From a virus: a DNA stretch of 37,847 nucleotides. Shown here one piece after another: positions 3,319 through 36,817 of the stretch. The translations under genes were made by a program, and so were the position numbers. Position 1 is the stretch's first letter. Each line of letters begins with the position of its first letter. A model generated the notes under the pieces. That model worked only from the letters and a program-made list of their open reading frames with translations, was not told where the DNA came from and did not search any database. The stretch is taken from IMG/VR virus record IMGVR_UViG_3300046536_000269, positions 1 through 37,847 of that record. One strand, 5' to 3'.

Positions 3319-3344
3319 CAAAAAAGCCGCAGGGTTACTGCGAC
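3319..3344 (-). terminator. tR1-like intrinsic terminator overlapping the end of the Cro-like gene
   Basis: On the minus strand, GTCGCAG-TAACC-CTGCGGC (3344-3326) forms a seven-pair stem with one T-G wobble and is followed at once by six T residues. The TAA stop of the Cro-like gene (3335-3337) lies in its loop. It separates the Cro-like gene from the replication genes, the place where lambda has tR1. Confidence 0.75.
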
Positions 3345-3604
3345 TGCGATTCCAGCGGCTGATCTGCTGCTTTCTTGCGGCGCTTCGGTGTGAGCTCCGG
3401 CCAGAGCTGTTCCCATTGATCCGGGAAAAGCTCCTGGCGCGTGACTAAGCCGCCTGTAAGCCGCTCGATTTCAGCGCCATGCAAGCGCGGGATCGGCTTC
3501 TTACCCTTGGCCCACTGCGTCACGCTCGGAGGCTTGATACCGAGACCTTTGGCCAGCGCAGTAGCGCGGCCTCGCCCTTGAGATAGGTAGTCAGATAGGT
3601 TCAT
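3335..3604 (-). CDS. Cro/YdaS-like helix-turn-helix repressor
   Basis: This 89-aa protein (MNLSDYLSQGRGRATALAK) has a helix-turn-helix at about residues 13-32 (TALAKGLGIKPPSVTQWAKG), followed by the KPIPRLHGAEIERLTGG segment typical of YdaS/Cro-like phage regulators. It is divergent from the CI-like gene and is the first gene of the early minus-strand operon, the Cro position. It would bind the ATTAGCC operators described here and favour lytic growth. Its ATG lies only seven bases after the -10 box TAATAT, with no Shine-Dalgarno sequence, so the message appears leaderless. Confidence 0.85.
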   Translation of the reverse strand: MNLSDYLSQGRGRATALAKGLGIKPPSVTQWAKGKKPIPRLHGAEIERLTGGLVTRQELFPDQWEQLWPELTPKRRKKAADQPLESQSQ

Positions 3605-3610
3605 ACGCTC

Positions 3611-3639
3611 ATATTATCCCAAGGCTAATACGAACGCAA
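3611..3639 (-). promoter_or_regulatory. Early promoter for Cro and the replication operon (PR-like)
   Basis: Reading the minus strand, -35 TTGCGT (3639-3634) and -10 TAATAT (3616-3611) are separated by exactly 17 bases, a strong sigma-70 layout. The spacer and -10 contain a 17-bp operator. The same arrangement recurs at 5471-5499. Transcription would start at about 3604-3605, at the Cro-like ATG. Confidence 0.82.
3613..3629. promoter_or_regulatory. Repressor operator A (within the PR-like promoter)
   Basis: On the minus strand this 17-bp site is ATTAGCCTTGGGATAAT: half-site ATTAGCC, three bases, then GGATAAT, an imperfect dyad of ATTAGCC-N3-GGCTAAT. It covers the promoter spacer and -10 box, so a bound repressor would block RNA polymerase. 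The identical 17-mer lies at 5481-5497. Confidence 0.75.
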
Positions 3640-3646
3640 GCAGAGA

Positions 3647-3663
3647 ATTAGCCCGTGGCGAAT
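3647..3663. promoter_or_regulatory. Repressor operator B
   Basis: ATTAGCCCGTGGCGAAT is the same dyad (half-sites ATTAGCC and GGCGAAT) and lies inside a larger near-palindrome that starts GAATT and ends AATTC (3645-3665 or so). Its centre is 34 bp from that of operator A, upstream of the PR-like -35 box. Confidence 0.72.
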
Positions 3664-3669
3664 TCAGTA

Positions 3670-3686
3670 ATTAGCCCGTGTGGCGT
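3670..3686. promoter_or_regulatory. Repressor operator C (weaker half-site)
   Basis: ATTAGCCCGTG is an intact left half-site. The right half (GGCGTCTAAT) matches only with two extra bases. It lies just upstream of the CI-like start, 23 bp from operator B, where a site controlling the repressor's own promoter would be expected. Confidence 0.55.
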
Positions 3687-3687
3687 C

Positions 3688-3693
3688 TAATAC
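3688..3693 (+). promoter_or_regulatory. Possible -10 box of the CI-like gene (PRM-like)
   Basis: TAATAC ends five bases before the CI-like ATG (3698). The -35 region is weak: TTCAGT at 3663-3668 gives a 19-base spacer. A weak promoter needing activation and giving a leaderless message would resemble lambda PRM, but the call is tentative. Confidence 0.35.
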
Positions 3694-3697
3694 AACA

Positions 3698-4120
3698 ATG
3701 CGAAAAATTGAAGATGTGCGCCGCGACAACTTAGCGCGCCTACGAGAGGAGCTGGGGTCTGTGAATGCCCTGGTGGAGCGGACTGGGAAGGCTCAGAGCC
3801 AGATCAGTCAGTGGCTGAACGCGTCCGCAAAGTCCGGAAGCGGTAAGCCGCGCAATATCAGCAGCGACTCATGCCGGGAGATCGAGCGGGCCTGCGACAA
3901 GCCCGATGGCTGGATGGATGTCGAGCACACCGGGGTGGCCGCAGCAGAGACAACCGAGGTAGTTGCTCTACGAAGGATGCTGGCCGAAGCGTCAGCCGAG
4001 ATCCGCCTTCTTTCGGTTTATAGGCTTGCGAACGACGCGCAACGGGAAGTGATAGACGGTGCCGTGCGCATTGTTATCGATCAACTGAGCGTTGTCGACA
4101 TTCTGAGCGGCCGACGGTGA
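3698..4120 (+). CDS. CI-like prophage repressor, short form without peptidase domain
   Basis: The 140-aa protein starts MRKIEDVRRDNLARLREELG and carries a helix-turn-helix at about residues 19-45 (NALVERTGKAQSQISQWLNA), followed by the conserved SSDSCREIERACDKPDGWMD segment of phage CI/Cro-like proteins. The C-terminal half (from about residue 80) is helical and probably dimerises the protein. There is no LexA-type Ser/Lys autoprotease domain, so induction cannot be by ordinary self-cleavage. I prefer the ATG at 3698 to the GTG at 3680. No ribosome binding site precedes it, fitting a leaderless message. It is divergent from the Cro-like gene across three operators. Its 3' end overlaps an antisense gene. 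Confidence 0.8.
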   Translation: MRKIEDVRRDNLARLREELGSVNALVERTGKAQSQISQWLNASAKSGSGKPRNISSDSCREIERACDKPDGWMDVEHTGVAAAETTEVVALRRMLAEASAEIRLLSVYRLANDAQREVIDGAVRIVIDQLSVVDILSGRR

Positions 4121-4231
4121 CGCTTCATTTGGAAAGCTGCGCAGTAGCTGCCGCGCCATCCCAACGAGATAATCTCGTCCGGTGTCATTCATCATCGCAA
4201 ACATAGTGGCAATTTCTGGCAAGCGATCCAT
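3992..4231 (-). CDS. Small protein convergent with and overlapping the repressor gene
   Basis: This 79-aa frame reads MDRLPEIATMFAMMNDTGRD, a helical start like other small phage proteins of the immunity region, and ends basic (RKPINRKK). GAGG lies six bases before its ATG. It overlaps the last 129 bases of the CI-like gene on the other strand, so both strands would be coding there. The first 35 residues look protein-like; the second half may be constrained mainly by the repressor frame. Function unknown; its message would be antisense to the repressor message. Confidence 0.5.
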   Translation of the reverse strand: MDRLPEIATMFAMMNDTGRDYLVGMARQLLRSFPNEASPSAAQNVDNAQLIDNNAHGTVYHFPLRVVRKPINRKKADLG

Positions 4232-4568
4232 AGGCGCCTCAATCGGTGTTCATTGATTACACATGCGGGAGAGGCTTAGTCGGGCATGTAAGAATATTCC
4301 TACAGCAGTCAGATTCTACCTATCGATTCTGCTGTAAATCTATCTGAATGTAACGTGCCTCGTCTTTGACCCGCTATCTGTTACATGAAAATACTGTACA
4401 CCCATACAGTTGTTAACGCTAGCAATCCTTGTTATGCATTGTGATTTTGAAATTACTATAAGCCGATCAATGTATTCGTACCACATAAGATGATCGTTTT
4501 GAGAATGTGGCAACTAACAGTGTTGTTTTTTGTGGCTTCGAGGTTGAAGCCGGGGCGGCTTTGCTTGG
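4232..4568. other. AT-rich non-coding region with inverted repeats
   Basis: No convincing gene lies in these 337 bases, which are clearly AT-richer than the flanks. Visible structures are TACAGCAG (4301-4308) paired with CTGCTGTA (4329-4336), the dyad ACTGTA-CACCCA-TACAGT (4393-4410), and the near-palindrome GTAAGAATATTCCTAC around 4288-4303. A hairpin GGCTTC-GAGGTT-GAAGCC lies just before the Arc-like gene. The region should hold promoters for the minus-strand small gene and the plus-strand Arc-like gene, but no consensus box is clear enough to call. Confidence 0.55.
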
Positions 4569-4574
4569 ATGTTG

Positions 4575-4817
4575 ATGCGCAACAATCCGCGCATGGAAAA
4601 GAAGCCTAAAACGAAATACCCGGCGACTACTGTTCGGCTTCCCGCTCCGCTGCACGACGAAGTGAAGCAAGCGGCTGAGCGGGCGGTTCACTCGATGAAC
4701 GACGAAATCATTCTGCGGTTACGAATGCAGCCGATCGAGGCCCGGCTGGGCGAGTTGGAGCAGCAAAGCGCAGAGATGAAACGCATGCTGCAGGTGCTGA
4801 TAGATAGACAGAGCTGA
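4575..4817 (+). CDS. Arc-like ribbon-helix-helix DNA-binding protein
   Basis: This product of about 80 aa has an Arc/MetJ-type fold: a basic lead (MEKKPKTKYP), a beta strand ATTVRLPAPLHDEV, then helices with KQAAERAVHSMNDEIILRLR, matching the phage Arc signature of a strand followed by N-S/D-E-I. A C-terminal heptad-rich helix (LGELEQQSAEMKRMLQVLID) probably oligomerises it. ATG codons at 4569, 4575 and 4593 are all possible; GGA six bases before 4575 favours that one. Arc proteins repress the ant promoter in P22. No antirepressor is visible here, so the target is unknown, perhaps the inverted repeats just upstream. Confidence 0.78.
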   Translation: MRNNPRMEKKPKTKYPATTVRLPAPLHDEVKQAAERAVHSMNDEIILRLRMQPIEARLGELEQQSAEMKRMLQVLIDRQS

Positions 4818-4858
4818 TGGCGCAACGGCACGCCAGGATGCCGAAGGTGAGGTCGGAA

Positions 4859-5290
4859 ATGAAAGCTACGATTGCGGTGATGGCCTTGATGGCTGGTATT
4901 GCTGGATGCGCCCCCATGATGGGGAGTGCAGGCGTCAACTGGGCAGCGATGGACCCGGGCAGGGCCCCCGACTACGAGACTGCTAAAGCTCGGGCGAGGG
5001 ATGCGATCCTTGGAACTCTGAAAGACCCTGATTCTGCACAGTTCCGCAACTCGACCCCGCTTTTCAAAACGCTCTACAACTTCGGCATGGCATCCATTGG
5101 TAACAGTGAGCCACTTTGGGCGATGTGCATTGAGGTGAACGCGAAAAACTCTTATGGGGGGTATGCTGGCTATCAGAGCTGGCTCGTTAAGTTCCGCAAT
5201 GGCCAGCCCGTTCATGGCGAACTTGGAGTGATGCACGCTGAATATGATTGTCAGACCGGGCCAGCGCAAGCCAGCCGCAGAGCCGGGTAG
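4859..5290 (+). CDS. Predicted outer-membrane or periplasmic lipoprotein of the immunity region
   Basis: The 143-aa protein starts MKATIAVMALMAGIAGCAPM, a short signal peptide with lipobox IAGC, so Cys17 would be lipidated. The mature part contains DAILGTLKDPDSAQFRN and a C-terminal portion, WAMCIEVNAKNSYGGYAGYQ, resembling small lipoproteins common in proteobacterial genomes and prophages. A ribosome binding site (AGGTCGGA) supports the start at 4859. It lies between the Arc-like gene and a strong terminator, so it may be expressed in the lysogen. Lipoproteins in this position can block superinfection; that role is inference only. Confidence 0.75.
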   Translation: MKATIAVMALMAGIAGCAPMMGSAGVNWAAMDPGRAPDYETAKARARDAILGTLKDPDSAQFRNSTPLFKTLYNFGMASIGNSEPLWAMCIEVNAKNSYGGYAGYQSWLVKFRNGQPVHGELGVMHAEYDCQTGPAQASRRAG

Positions 5291-5361
5291 TCTTTTGCTG
5301 CCCGGCAACACTTGACCTGGCGCGGCGCCCTAAGCCATCCCGACGCCCGCCCCACCCCACC

Positions 5362-5385
5362 AGCCCGCCATGTGCGGGCTTTTTT
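5362..5385 (+). terminator. Intrinsic terminator after the lipoprotein gene
   Basis: AGCCCGC-CATGT-GCGGGCT forms a perfect seven-base-pair stem followed by a T run (5380-5385). It ends the Arc-like/lipoprotein transcript and separates it from the early promoter at 5471. Confidence 0.85.
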
Positions 5386-5446
5386 ACGCCCTGTTGTCTG
5401 TATGTCTCGCTTACTCAAGCGCGCCCGTAAAAATTTCGCAAATAAT

Positions 5447-5463
5447 ATTAGCCCTAGGCGCAA
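5447..5463. promoter_or_regulatory. Repressor operator D (upstream of the PL-like promoter)
   Basis: ATTAGCCCTAGGCGCAA has the intact ATTAGCC half-site, three bases and a partly conserved GGC half. Its centre lies exactly 34 bp upstream of that of operator E, the same spacing as operators B and A at the other promoter. Confidence 0.6.
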
Positions 5464-5470
5464 ATAACGC

Positions 5471-5499
5471 TTGCATGGCCATTAGCCTTGGGATAATAT
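5471..5499 (+). promoter_or_regulatory. Early promoter of the plus-strand operon (PL-like)
   Basis: TTGCAT (5471-5476), a 17-base spacer and TAATAT (5494-5499) form a strong sigma-70 promoter. The block is nearly identical to the Cro promoter: the shared part runs ATTAGCCTTGGGATAATAT. Transcription would start near 5506 and read into the early operon that ends with the excisionase-like gene. Confidence 0.85.
5481..5497. promoter_or_regulatory. Repressor operator E (within the PL-like promoter)
   Basis: ATTAGCCTTGGGATAAT is identical over 17 bp to operator A and sits in the same place, covering spacer and -10. One regulator would therefore control both early promoters. Confidence 0.75.
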
Positions 5500-5548: not shown

Positions 5549-5785
5549 ATGGCACTCATCAACGGTAACAACGCAAGCGGCAAGCTGTTCGATGTGGTGG
5601 ATGAGGACGGTGATGTTCTCGGATCGTTCGATCACATCAGCGATGCCACTGAGTGCGGCCGCGCCGCTCCGTGGCACGCCGGCAACGTCAATATTCGCCG
5701 TGATCTGTCGATCGCCAATCGCATCAGCAAGGCCGCCCAAGAACACCAGCGCCGCGTCCGCCTGGAAATGGAATACGCCGCCTAA
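5549..5785 (+). CDS. First gene of the plus-strand early operon, unknown function
   Basis: The 78-aa protein reads MALINGNNASGKLFDVVDED and later HISDATECGRAAPWHAGNVN, with a basic helical C-terminus. GGAGAGACAGC before the ATG sets the start at 5549, about 43 bases after the predicted transcription start; the in-frame TTG at 5507 is too close to it. It occupies the position of an early regulator such as lambda N, but it is not an Arg-rich N-like peptide, so no role is assigned. Confidence 0.7.
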   Translation: MALINGNNASGKLFDVVDEDGDVLGSFDHISDATECGRAAPWHAGNVNIRRDLSIANRISKAAQEHQRRVRLEMEYAA

Positions 5786-13493: not shown

Positions 13494-13696
13494 TGCCTAA
13501 ATTCAAACTTAGCTCGCATGTGACTGTGAGTGCATATACCGAAGTCGAGGCGGACACGCTGGAAGAAGCGATCAAGATTTCCGAGCGGCGCGATGTCGTG
13601 CTGGGCGGACCCGGCAGCGGCGCATATCCCGATGAATCTTGGATCATCGACGACGCCGATGGAGCCCCAACCGATATTCATCATGATAAGGACTAG
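13493..13696 (+). CDS. Small phage protein with VEADTLEEAI motif
   Basis: The 67-aa protein begins MPKFKLSSHVTVSAYTEVEA and continues DTLEEAIKISERRD, a short beta-alpha-beta unit seen in many phage hypothetical proteins. The C-terminus is acidic. The ATG at 13493 overlaps the preceding TGA. No function can be assigned. Confidence 0.65.
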   Translation: MPKFKLSSHVTVSAYTEVEADTLEEAIKISERRDVVLGGPGSGAYPDESWIIDDADGAPTDIHHDKD

Positions 13697-13700
13697 CCCC

Positions 13701-15563
13701 ATGACCACCACCACTACCGGCGCGGCCGGAACCGAAGCAGGGATTGACCTGGGCAAGCTGATGTCAAAAGCTGAAATCGACGAAATCGTGTACGCATGCC
13801 GTCAAGCAGGCAAGGACACCACGTACGACATCGTGAACGCCGCTCTAGCACGCCGCGCCCCTGCGCCTGCCGATGAGCGTGCGCTGTTCGAGGCTACGGT
13901 GGATCAACGACATCCACGTGACCGGAATATGCCTGATGGCTCTTACAATAGTCCTTACCTTCATATTGCATGGGAAGTCTGGCAATTGGCCCGTGCCGCC
14001 CATCAGGCCGCGCCAGCACAGCCGTTGGGGGTGAAAATTGCTGCTACCAACGAGGCTGCACAGCCCTGCGGCGGACGCGAATACTGTGGCAGGATGCCGT
14101 TCTGCGGCTGCGGTGACGAGCCTCTTTTCCCCGAGCGTGATACGTCGAAGCCAGCGGAACAGCAGGGCATTTTCCGCAAGTTCGATGTGCGCCGCGTCGA
14201 TGGCAGCGATAAGTCGGGCGGTAAACATTATGGTTGCCGCTATTACGTGCTCGACCTGACACATGACCAGCACGCGCCCGCCGCGATGCGCGCCTATGCC
14301 GCTGCCTGCCGAGCAACACACCCGCAGCTTGCTGCCGACATCGAAGCAGAGTTCGGGGCCGCGCCAGCACAGCCCCGGACACCAGTGAGCAGTAGCGGCG
14401 GTGCGAGTGGCGAGTGGTTTACGATAAGCATGAGCCGCCCACTCACCTTCACATTAGGCTACACCCATACCGTGACCCCAGTGCAAGCGAGCGTAGACCA
14501 AGCCGCGCCAGCACAACAACGCGATACCCATGGCCCGTTGCTCGTAGCCCGCATCAAGCGTTACAAGGAAGCGTTCTGCTGCTCGCTGCTTGAGGCGAAA
14601 AACGCGTGCGAGTTCTACCGCGATCTGAATTCCGAGCGCAACGAATTCGTTTCTCCTGAATCCGCGCCAGCACATCCATCAGCCGCGCCGATCTATCAAG
14701 CGCGTGCGGAGAATTCCTGGACATGGGCAGATGTTGACCGCGAAGTGTATGAACTCATGGGTCCGAAGTTACGCCGAATTGTCTACGCCGCGCCGACCAG
14801 TGACCAGCAGGCCGGTGCAGTGGCGGTACAAGTCGGATACATGCGCCTTCTGGATAGTGGCACGAAGATGGGTATCGGCTTCGACAAGCTGGAAGAACCC
14901 TTGATCGAAGGGTGGCGACAAGTACCTGTGTTCGCCTACCTCGCCGCTCCTGCTGCCATCGAGCAGGCCGGTGCGCCCATCGATGAGCAGGAAGGCGTGG
15001 CGGGCCTACGCCCGTATGAATTCTCGGTCTGCGGGAAGTCGCTGCGCTGGTACTTGAAGCGCGATGTTGATGCACTGTTTGTCGAGCAGGCCGGTGCGCA
15101 GCCGGTGGACCCAATTTATCAGGTTAAGCGTACAAAGCACGGCGGTGGCTGGATCGACACTTACAAATCCAGCTATGACAGCACAGCCGATTGGAACCGC
15201 CGCATCGTCTACCTCGCCGCTCCTACGCCTGCTACCAATCAGACCGAGGAAGCGCCATCAGTAAAGCAGGAAAAGCTGCGCGCGCTGGCCGATCGCATCG
15301 ACCACGAGAAGTCGTGGAAGCTCCCATTCATGGATCACCACAAGCTGACCGCCGACCAGAAGGACCGCCTTGATTGCGGCATCATGTTGCGCCGCTACGC
15401 CGACCTGCTCGCGCCTGGCCGTTGGCTCGTCCTGCCGCCGACGGGCAATGTTCAGTTCAGCGCAAGCACGCTCGAAAAGGTCGCGGAAATGGCGAAGCGC
15501 GCTCAGGACCGGCGGGCCGCTACTCCTGTCACCGACCAGCCCAAACAGGGAGATCAGCAATGA
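13701..15563 (+). CDS. Modular early protein 2 (mosaic of small domains)
   Basis: The 620-aa protein is a string of domains: a zinc-like patch CGGREYCGRMPFCGCG (about 116-131); a KFDVRRVDGSDKSGGKHYGC unit (about 158-217); a unit like the ribosomal L7/L12 C-terminal domain (RIKRYKEAFCCSLLEAKNAC, about 280-305); three DUF551-like repeats that each end in (V/F)Y(L)AAP (about 330-367, 371-418, 468-508); and a helical end domain (KLRALADRIDHEKSW). Ala/Pro linkers separate them and repeat at DNA level. I start at ATG 13701, five bases after the previous stop, because the upstream part of the frame only shadows that gene. Function unknown; possibly an adaptor. Confidence 0.68.
   Translation: MTTTTTGAAGTEAGIDLGKLMSKAEIDEIVYACRQAGKDTTYDIVNAALARRAPAPADERALFEATVDQRHPRDRNMPDGSYNSPYLHIAWEVWQLARAAHQAAPAQPLGVKIAATNEAAQPCGGREYCGRMPFCGCGDEPLFPERDTSKPAEQQGIFRKFDVRRVDGSDKSGGKHYGCRYYVLDLTHDQHAPAAMRAYAAACRATHPQLAADIEAEFGAAPAQPRTPVSSSGGASGEWFTISMSRPLTFTLGYTHTVTPVQASVDQAAPAQQRDTHGPLLVARIKRYKEAFCCSLLEAKNACEFYRDLNSERNEFVSPESAPAHPSAAPIYQARAENSWTWADVDREVYELMGPKLRRIVYAAPTSDQQAGAVAVQVGYMRLLDSGTKMGIGFDKLEEPLIEGWRQVPVFAYLAAPAAIEQAGAPIDEQEGVAGLRPYEFSVCGKSLRWYLKRDVDALFVEQAGAQPVDPIYQVKRTKHGGGWIDTYKSSYDSTADWNRRIVYLAAPTPATNQTEEAPSVKQEKLRALADRIDHEKSWKLPFMDHHKLTADQKDRLDCGIMLRRYADLLAPGRWLVLPPTGNVQFSASTLEKVAEMAKRAQDRRAATPVTDQPKQGDQQ
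14007..14674 (+). repeat. In-frame linker repeats within modular protein 2
   Basis: GCCGCGCCAGCACA, coding A-A-P-A-Q, occurs at 14007-14020, 14358-14371 and 14502-14515, and minus its first base at 14662-14674. The first two copies extend to an 18-bp match. All spacings are multiples of three. They mark borders between unrelated protein modules. Confidence 0.7.
14961..15099 (+). repeat. Second linker repeat family in modular protein 2
   Basis: GAGCAGGCCGGTGCGC, coding E-Q-A-G-A, occurs at 14961-14976 and 15084-15099, 123 bases (41 codons) apart. A close relative, CAGCAGGCCGGTGCAG, lies near 14805-14820. Each lies just after or before a domain. Confidence 0.6.
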
Positions 15564-16244: not shown

Positions 16245-16720
16245 GCGCCATCTTCAGCCCATGTGGCCAGTACCGGTACATGCTTTCGCGGCCGGGAGAT
16301 TTGAGTTCGACGCGCGGCCCAGCGCTCTTCATCATGCTGAACCCGAGTACAGCTGATGCCGAACTGGACGATCCGACGGTTCGCCGCTGCCGCGGCTTCG
16401 CGCAGGCATGGGGCTGTAACGGAATACAGGTGCTCAACCTGTACGCGTTGCGCTCTACGGACCCGACTGCGCTTTGGGAGCACGATGACCCTGTGGGGCC
16501 AGAAAACGACGCGTGGCTGTCGCGTCTTGCGCTCGCGGCCGACGAGGTTGTCTGCGCCTGGGGCGTCAACGCACAGCCGTCGCGCGTGCGCGAAGTGGCA
16601 GCGATGCTGGCGGAGCACGGCGTGCAACTGAAGTGCCTCGGCACCACGAAGAACGGAGCGCCGCGTCATCCGCTTTACGTGCGCGGCGACCAGCCACTTA
16701 TCAATTGGAGCGGGCAATGA
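16241..16720 (+). CDS. DUF1643 family protein
   Basis: The 159-aa protein matches the DUF1643 pattern: FSPCGQYRYML, the hallmark FIMLNPSTADAELDDPT and RRCRGFAQAWG, then NLYALRSTDP and a C-terminal CLGTTKNGAPRHPLY. The family is found in bacteria and phages, and its biochemical role is not established. GTG start overlapping the preceding TGA, with GGGAG upstream. Length is as expected for the family. Confidence 0.88.
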   Translation: MSAIFSPCGQYRYMLSRPGDLSSTRGPALFIMLNPSTADAELDDPTVRRCRGFAQAWGCNGIQVLNLYALRSTDPTALWEHDDPVGPENDAWLSRLALAADEVVCAWGVNAQPSRVREVAAMLAEHGVQLKCLGTTKNGAPRHPLYVRGDQPLINWSGQ

Positions 16721-35614: not shown

Positions 35615-36817
35615 TTACAGGGTGGTGTCCTGCACGGACAGCGTCGTGTTCTCGAACTGCGCATCCGTGCCTTTGTAGCGCAGCAGGTCGAACTGACAGG
35701 TGACGATCTTGTTCTTCTCGCCATCGTCCACCTTAGCGGAGGTGATCTTGATCCGGCCGGCAGAAAACGCCAGCACATCGGCGGTGGGCGAGGCGCTAGA
35801 TGCCATTGCATAGGCCAGCGGAAGTTCTGCCTCGGCCTTGAAGTAGTCGAGGAACGTCGAGTCCTGCAGCAAGACGGTGAATTGGCCGGAGCCCATCACC
35901 TTCCCACGCGAGGCCGCAGTTGCGTACTTGGAGGCGAGTACGCTGTCGATCTTGACTTGACCATCGACGGATAGTGACATTCCGGTGCAGATTTGCGACG
36001 GGATGCCATTCACAGACAAGAGGGCCGTAGCGCCGGAGAACTTGCCAGTGGCCGGCGTAGCGGCCGGGCTGGTGAAGTAAGCGGTAGCCGAGTTCGGCAG
36101 TTCCTGCTTACCCATGAATGAGAAATTCATGGTGGTCATGCCGTTGGGCTGGACGGAAATATCCATCTTGCTCGGCTGCTGATCGACGAACACGCGGTTG
36201 ACGCCGATCTTCGTTTCCTGGATCTCGGCCGTGAACCAGTCGTTGGTATGGCCGGTCAGCGGCGTGAAGGTACGCTTGCCAGTGGCGGTTACCGCCACCG
36301 TATCGCCGGCAGCCTTCGCCACCATCGCCGTGCCGTCCATGAACTGGCCGTTCAGGTTGGTTGCGGTTACGGAGGATACGAAGAAATTGCGTCCGTTATT
36401 CGCGGTGGCGGGTGCAGTAAAGCCGGAAATGCGCACCACGTTACCGGCATCGAAGCCATCCGTCAGCCAGGAGCCGGCCGAGCGGGTCAGGCCGCCGGTA
36501 GTCGAGGTGATGGTGATTTGAGCGGTAGTCACGGCAGCAGTCGTGAAGTCGCGGCGCAGGATTGCTGCCATCAGTGGCGCGTAGGTGCCGCACGACGCCT
36601 CGCCATTCAGCGCGCCCGAAGTACGGAAGTTGCCGAGACGGGTGTCGCCCTGTTGTTGGCTGGGGTCGATCTCGTTCGAGCTGTACTTGTCTGCATCGGT
36701 ATCGAACGTCGCGGTGATGCGCGGGTACAGTTGCCCGGTGCCTGCCGCAGCTTTGGTTCCTTCTGCGGTCTGTTTGCTCAGGACGAGCAGGGTATCAATG
36801 CCGTTAGCAGTTGCCAT
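35615..36817 (-). CDS. Major tail tube protein
   Basis: The 400-aa protein begins MATANGIDTLLVLSKQTAEG with KAAAGTGQLYPRITATFDTD, typical of siphovirus tail tube proteins, and has a beta-rich body with repeated strands (TAQITITSTTGGLTRSAGSW) and FTVLLQDSTFLDYFKAEAEL. It would polymerise into the tail tube around the tape measure. It is set off by a terminator upstream and a hairpin downstream, suggesting its own expression level. Larger than lambda gpV (246 aa), with probable extra surface domain (about residues 95-190). Confidence 0.85.
   Translation of the reverse strand: MATANGIDTLLVLSKQTAEGTKAAAGTGQLYPRITATFDTDADKYSSNEIDPSQQQGDTRLGNFRTSGALNGEASCGTYAPLMAAILRRDFTTAAVTTAQITITSTTGGLTRSAGSWLTDGFDAGNVVRISGFTAPATANNGRNFFVSSVTATNLNGQFMDGTAMVAKAAGDTVAVTATGKRTFTPLTGHTNDWFTAEIQETKIGVNRVFVDQQPSKMDISVQPNGMTTMNFSFMGKQELPNSATAYFTSPAATPATGKFSGATALLSVNGIPSQICTGMSLSVDGQVKIDSVLASKYATAASRGKVMGSGQFTVLLQDSTFLDYFKAEAELPLAYAMASSASPTADVLAFSAGRIKITSAKVDDGEKNKIVTCQFDLLRYKGTDAQFENTTLSVQDTTL

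Follow-up and report, generated by a model that had tools for sequence, protein, structure and literature searches.

In the Rac prophage of Escherichia coli K-12, the repressor RacR is encoded divergently from a YdaS-type Cro and binds the Rac intergenic region (PMC5700373), in which we read three dyads of the form TTAGGC-N3-GCCTAA, 26 and 25 bp apart. A second described system, PaaR2/YdaS of CP-933P in E. coli O157:H7, has YdaS as its Cro equivalent and a repressor that lacks a peptidase domain and whose gene, paaR2, is leaderless by experiment; it contains OR and OL sites as well as a PRM that is raised by low repressor, again by experiment, and has been reported not to react to mitomycin C (PMC8630535). 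Gifsy repressors are not cleaved and are undone by small LexA-controlled antirepressors (PMC3121763). The structure of Rep, the repressor of Salmonella phage SPC32H, has been solved in complex with the antirepressor Ant. Phage lambda has three OR sites, of which OR2 lies just upstream of the -35 element of PRM, a leaderless cI and, downstream of cI, a second operator; its O1-O2 spacing is 23-24 bp.

The DNA analyzed in this study (hereafter the window) is an IMG/VR virus record (IMGVR_UViG_3300046536_000269) of 37,847 bp, which is the window's own length, and genome-wide searches refer to these 37.8 kb. Its probable immunity region shows the RacR/PaaR2-YdaS layout, with a YdaS-type Cro gene transcribed away from that of a short repressor and three dyads, the third of which is degenerate in the clade to which the window belongs. 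It also shows the lambda-type architecture, in which cI and cro diverge and share operators over PR and PRM, and in which matching operators recur at another early promoter, located downstream of cI. The Cro family and the arrangement of the intergenic region place the predicted switch with RacR/YdaS and PaaR2/YdaS, and the N-domain of its CI, which is homologous to that of SPC32H Rep, places it with the latter repressor.

There are also differences from each of these systems. The operator bases are not those of Rac, the O1-O2 distance is about 2.5 helical turns in Rac and 3.2 in the window, and likeness between RacR and the window repressor (P0001) is not evident by eye. CP-933P has four equally spaced palindromes (consensus GTTTAGTAA) and toxin-antitoxin genes in the operon. 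The C-terminal domain of the window CI and the small protein encoded next to it are unrelated by sequence to those of SPC32H and Gifsy. Lambda differs in its operator sequence, in its Cro family and in the cleavable C-terminal domain of its repressor, which the window CI lacks. A DNA-level search of the phage collection using this region and a search of Rfam returned no match.

Regulators and Neighboring Genes

The Cro-like regulator P0002 (89 aa; 3335-3604, minus strand) falls into the YdaS/P22-Cro family, with matches to the Pfam families PF15943 (E = 4e-14, 52.5 bits, cut-off 30) and P22_Cro PF14549 (E = 2e-9, 37.7 bits, cut-off 30.2), and the left operon on its side leads to a DnaB-like helicase. 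The CI-like repressor P0001 (140 aa; 3698-4120, plus strand) consists of an N-terminal helix-turn-helix and a short helical C-terminal domain. No profile match to an S24 peptidase domain was obtained in the 140-aa CI, by which a self-cleaving repressor of the S24/LexA type was ruled out. The closest solved structure to its N-domain is SPC32H Rep (5d50), with a profile E value of 8e-6 and rank 1 in Foldseek.

The first gene after PL (78 aa; 5549-5785, plus strand) is without a family match, and RecT-like and RecE-like recombination genes are located further downstream in the same direction. Just before PL, a 157-aa protein (4817-5290) matches phrog_2320, a family of unknown function. In a 677-aa ORF at 13530-15563, residues 201-273 match a sulfatase-modifying-factor-like domain in PHROG, and the ORF is without a Pfam match. 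A tail-tube protein gene at 35615-36817 indicates that the right side of the window is phage, and the idea that it represents host DNA was set aside for this reason.

Operators and Promoters

The 17-mer ATTAGCCTTGGGATAAT is present in two exact copies, OR1 at 3613-3629 (read on the minus strand) inside PR, a place that it keeps in relatives, and OL1 at 5481-5497 (plus strand) inside PL. The sequence-only reading had described these identical copies in both early promoters, and with up to three mismatches the same two sites are the only ones in 37,847 bp (0.02 expected from shuffles), so the 17-mer is not scattered at random. Its report of a second operator-like dyad 34 bp away on both sides is borne out as well, the centre-to-centre distance from the second to the first dyad being exactly 34 bp at OR and at OL. 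OR2 (3647-3663), with the sequence ATTAGCCCGTGGCGAAT, matches ATTAGCC-N3-GGCTAAT at 13 of 14 positions, and OL2 (5447-5463, plus strand), which lies upstream of OL1 and reads ATTAGCCCTAGGCGCAA, does so at 11 of 14. As in lambda, OR2 abuts the -35 element of PRM, and its centre precedes the CI start codon by 43 bp. The third half-site noted earlier before the CI-like gene is the good left half (ATTAGCC, 3670-3676) of a degenerate OR3 (3670-3686) inside the PRM spacer, the right half of which is poor; most relatives outside the window clade have complete dyads at this place. All five occurrences of ATTAGCC in the 37,847-bp record are inside these operator sites, and a dyad search of the record found clusters at OR and OL only.

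The three putative promoters have 17-bp spacers. PR (3611-3639, minus strand) is composed of TTGCGT (3634-3639) and TAATAT (3611-3616), PL (5471-5499, plus strand) of TTGCAT (5471-5476) and TAATAT (5494-5499), and PRM (3663-3691, plus strand) of TTCAGT (3663-3668) and TCTAAT (3686-3691). These elements are poor relative to the E. coli consensus, with PR and PL below the threshold of a generic sigma-70 scan, and they are kept in seven relatives (eight clade members with the window). Transcription from PRM is predicted to start at the CI ATG, and the start codon of the Cro-like gene coincides with the predicted PR transcription start, a position relative to O1 that is kept in most relatives. Judged from this promoter-start spacing, both the cI and cro mRNAs appear to be leaderless.

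The interpretation of these sites as an OR/OL-like system is strongly supported by relatives with the same dyads at the same places. In calling the system complete, the sequence-only reading passed over the degenerate state of O3, and it had missed a LexA-type SOS box and a small gene located just downstream of CI.

Operator Spacing Across Relatives

Loci with CI relatives were collected from an IMG/VR scan (65 loci) and from bacterial genomes (seven loci), and spacing statistics were calculated over 27 clusters cut at 80% N-domain identity. In relatives, Cro-like and CI-like genes flank OR, and a second operator pair is found 0.5-6 kb downstream. The window clade comprises the window and seven contigs (L022-L028) with 62-69% identical CI, all seven of which have the same dyads with 34 bp at OR and 34 bp at OL. 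Across the wider family, the position relative to the CI start is nearly constant for O2 (about -43) and for O3 (about -19) and variable for O1. Grouped into spacing windows that were named post hoc, once the data had been seen, the O1-O2 distance at OR is 23-25 bp in 18 of the 27 clusters, 34-35 bp in eight and 44 bp in one, and the distance within the OL pair is 23-26 bp in 11, 33-35 bp in 15 and 45 bp in one. The phase concentration at 10.5 bp is high at both places (R = 0.94 for OR and 0.86 for OL).

The spacing of the predicted operators is thus quantised by helical turns (~10.5 bp) across the sampled relatives, at about two, three or four turns and not between, which strengthens the case for cooperativity and points to repressor dimers that may touch on one face of the DNA. 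The equal 34-bp spacing from which cooperativity had originally been suggested is a different matter. Cooperativity is backed indirectly by the family-wide quantisation, but OR and OL spacing change independently and most relatives are unequal (23/35, 24/26, 34/45 and 44/34), so equality is a trait of the clade and not a rule. Four distant bacterial relatives (L119, L120, L123, and L124) have another repeat, TTTACC...GATAAA, upstream of CI at places like O1 and O3.

Repressor Specificity

Residue 45 of CI, just past the recognition helix, separates C from G operators at base 7 of the half-site, and the separation is complete (z = 12 against shuffles). In cluster representatives, Lys or His occurs with C in 39 of 40 half-sites and Asp with G in 66 of 72, while Asn is relaxed. 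Four further bacterial loci, read by eye, fit both the spacing classes and this code, with Asn and C in L108 and with Asp and G in L110, L112, and L114. Within this sample, the seventh base of the operator can be predicted from CI residue 45. Independent support for the code is limited, with about four changes on the best tree, only one of them on a well supported (starred) branch. Such a pairing makes chemical sense, with cytosine as the partner of Asp and the complementary guanine as that of Lys or His. The sequence specificity, previously described as new, is new relative to lambda; a large family has it in common, however, and the Rac prophage contains similar repeats, TTAGGC/GCCTAA (PMC5700373).

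SOS Box and Candidate Antirepressor

A conserved gene encoding the 79-aa protein P0003 (3992-4231, minus strand) is arranged tail-to-tail with CI and overlaps its 3' end. All eight clade members carry it, and outside the CI overlap its differences are rich in third codon positions (239/181/498). A promoter-like sequence, TTAACA-17-TATTTT (4388-4416, minus strand), contains in its spacer a LexA-type SOS box, CTGT-N8-ACAG (4394-4409). In seven of the eight clade members, such a box is found no more than about 350 bp from the end of CI, and a recognizable one is absent from L026. Because CI is without an S24 peptidase domain, induction probably proceeds via LexA, and we infer that P0003 is an SOS-induced antirepressor. 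Across clusters, the association of the SOS box with non-peptidase CI is only a trend (Fisher p = 0.07); in this comparison, the S24 motif used had wrongly scored L031 and L032 as being without the domain. The likeness of P0003 to the C-terminal domain of CI is weak, with 2-3% of profile shuffles reaching its score and hhalign not significant, and the proposal that P0003 is a proven copy of this domain was accordingly rejected as unproven.

Several further observations concern this neighborhood and its counterparts. An Arc-like ribbon-helix-helix gene (4569-4817; PF03869 above the cut-off) is situated between the SOS-box region and PL, and similar ORFs were found in L004 and L006. Since the Arc-like and 79-aa genes have a common intergenic region, the Arc-like protein could, speculatively, regulate the 79-aa gene; in P22, Arc regulates ant. 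A second CTGT-N8-ACAG at 16414-16429 is at about chance level (mean of 0.42 in shuffles). Two tandem SOS-type boxes are located downstream of an S24-length CI in L054 and L055, and L035 encodes a second CI-like helix-turn-helix gene after the first CI in the same direction.

Model of the Switch

We consider it likely that this region is a temperate-phage immunity region with a lambda-type bistable switch, LexA-linked induction included. The short CI would bind the ATTAGCC-N3-GGCTAAT dyads at OR and OL, and CI dimers on O1 and O2, which face the same side of the helix at a distance of 34 bp (about 3.2 turns), would probably touch. Touching dimers would silence PR, with the Cro-like and replication genes read leftward, and PL, with the recombination genes read rightward. 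By occupying OR2, the centre of which precedes the predicted PRM start by 43 bp, CI probably also activates its own leaderless transcript, and through the degenerate OR3 inside PRM, expression of CI may be turned off by the Cro-like protein or by an excess of CI. Upon DNA damage, the SOS-box promoter would be freed from LexA and give rise to the 79-aa protein, which would inactivate CI. The order in which the operators are used is likewise one that we infer within this model.

Alternative Explanations

Phased spacing could be a matter of promoter geometry, with RNA polymerase or DNA bending fixing the PR-PRM distance in whole turns. O1 does keep a fixed place with respect to PR, as does O2 with respect to PRM, which makes the OR spacing equal to the promoter separation; at OL, however, where O2 is without an apparent second promoter, the pair is still quantised (23-26, 33-35, and 45 bp), and we regard this explanation as unlikely. 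About as unlikely is the possibility that the pattern reflects common descent with few changes and that its fit to helical turns is partly luck. All members of the window clade share 34/34, relatedness is common among the clusters, and the resolution of the deep branches is poor. Nevertheless, the CI N-domain tree, which is built on few columns from related family members and has many open forks, requires at least six changes of spacing class for OR and at least four for OL, every spacing being in phase. Comparable windows cover ~39% of the integer distances from 20 to 50, ten chance hits would have a post hoc probability of about 1 in 10,000, and the new bacterial loci also fit.

It is very unlikely that the Cro-like protein is the main one to bind these sites, with the short CI acting elsewhere or as a modulator. 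This possibility draws on the strong YdaS/P22-Cro match of the Cro-like protein and on CP-933P, in which YdaS covers the same region as PaaR2 (PMC8630535), but base 7 is tracked much better by CI residue 45 than by any Cro column (best z = 6.8, position 7). It is possible, albeit doubtful, that the 79-aa protein is an unrelated SOS-induced protein (for example, one of replication or cell division) merely encoded beside CI. Searches of PDB, Pfam, PHROG and folds gave no homology of P0003 to a known antirepressor, and its AlphaFold confidence is low (mean pLDDT of 62.8), both of which would suit such a protein. On the other hand, every P0003 relative found in IMG/VR is on a contig with the operators of the window clade, a CI without a peptidase domain is expected to have another induction route, and an SOS box with a small convergent ORF behind it is likewise seen in two further phages with a short CI (L029 and L033).

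Implications for the Repressor Family

With CI as the probable operator-binding repressor and P0003 as its candidate antirepressor, we tentatively propose, at somewhat less than even confidence, a widespread phage repressor family with one operator grammar and a specificity residue at position 45, in which the induction domain has been swapped between S24 self-cleavage in some members and, in the window clade, a small LexA-controlled antirepressor encoded tail-to-tail with CI. The grammar is part of the same joint and equally tentative proposal: O2 and O3 would be fixed, and O1 and the OL pair would move only by whole turns. What stands out most in this well-conserved operator system is that its spacing is quantised by helical turns across relatives. 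From engineered operators, repressor cooperativity is known to depend on helical phase, reportedly through the work of Hochschild and Ptashne, and a natural family that steps its OR and OL spacing by about one turn would show selection keeping the phase.

If the proposal is true, the natural set represents a ready-made experiment on repressor cooperativity versus spacing, with matched natural pairs of 23, 34, and 44 bp on offer for direct tests. The code linking residue 45 to base 7 would provide a simple, testable predictor of which phages of the family have common immunity, and, should the 79-aa protein act as an antirepressor, one and the same module for DNA binding would be coupled to two different SOS sensors.
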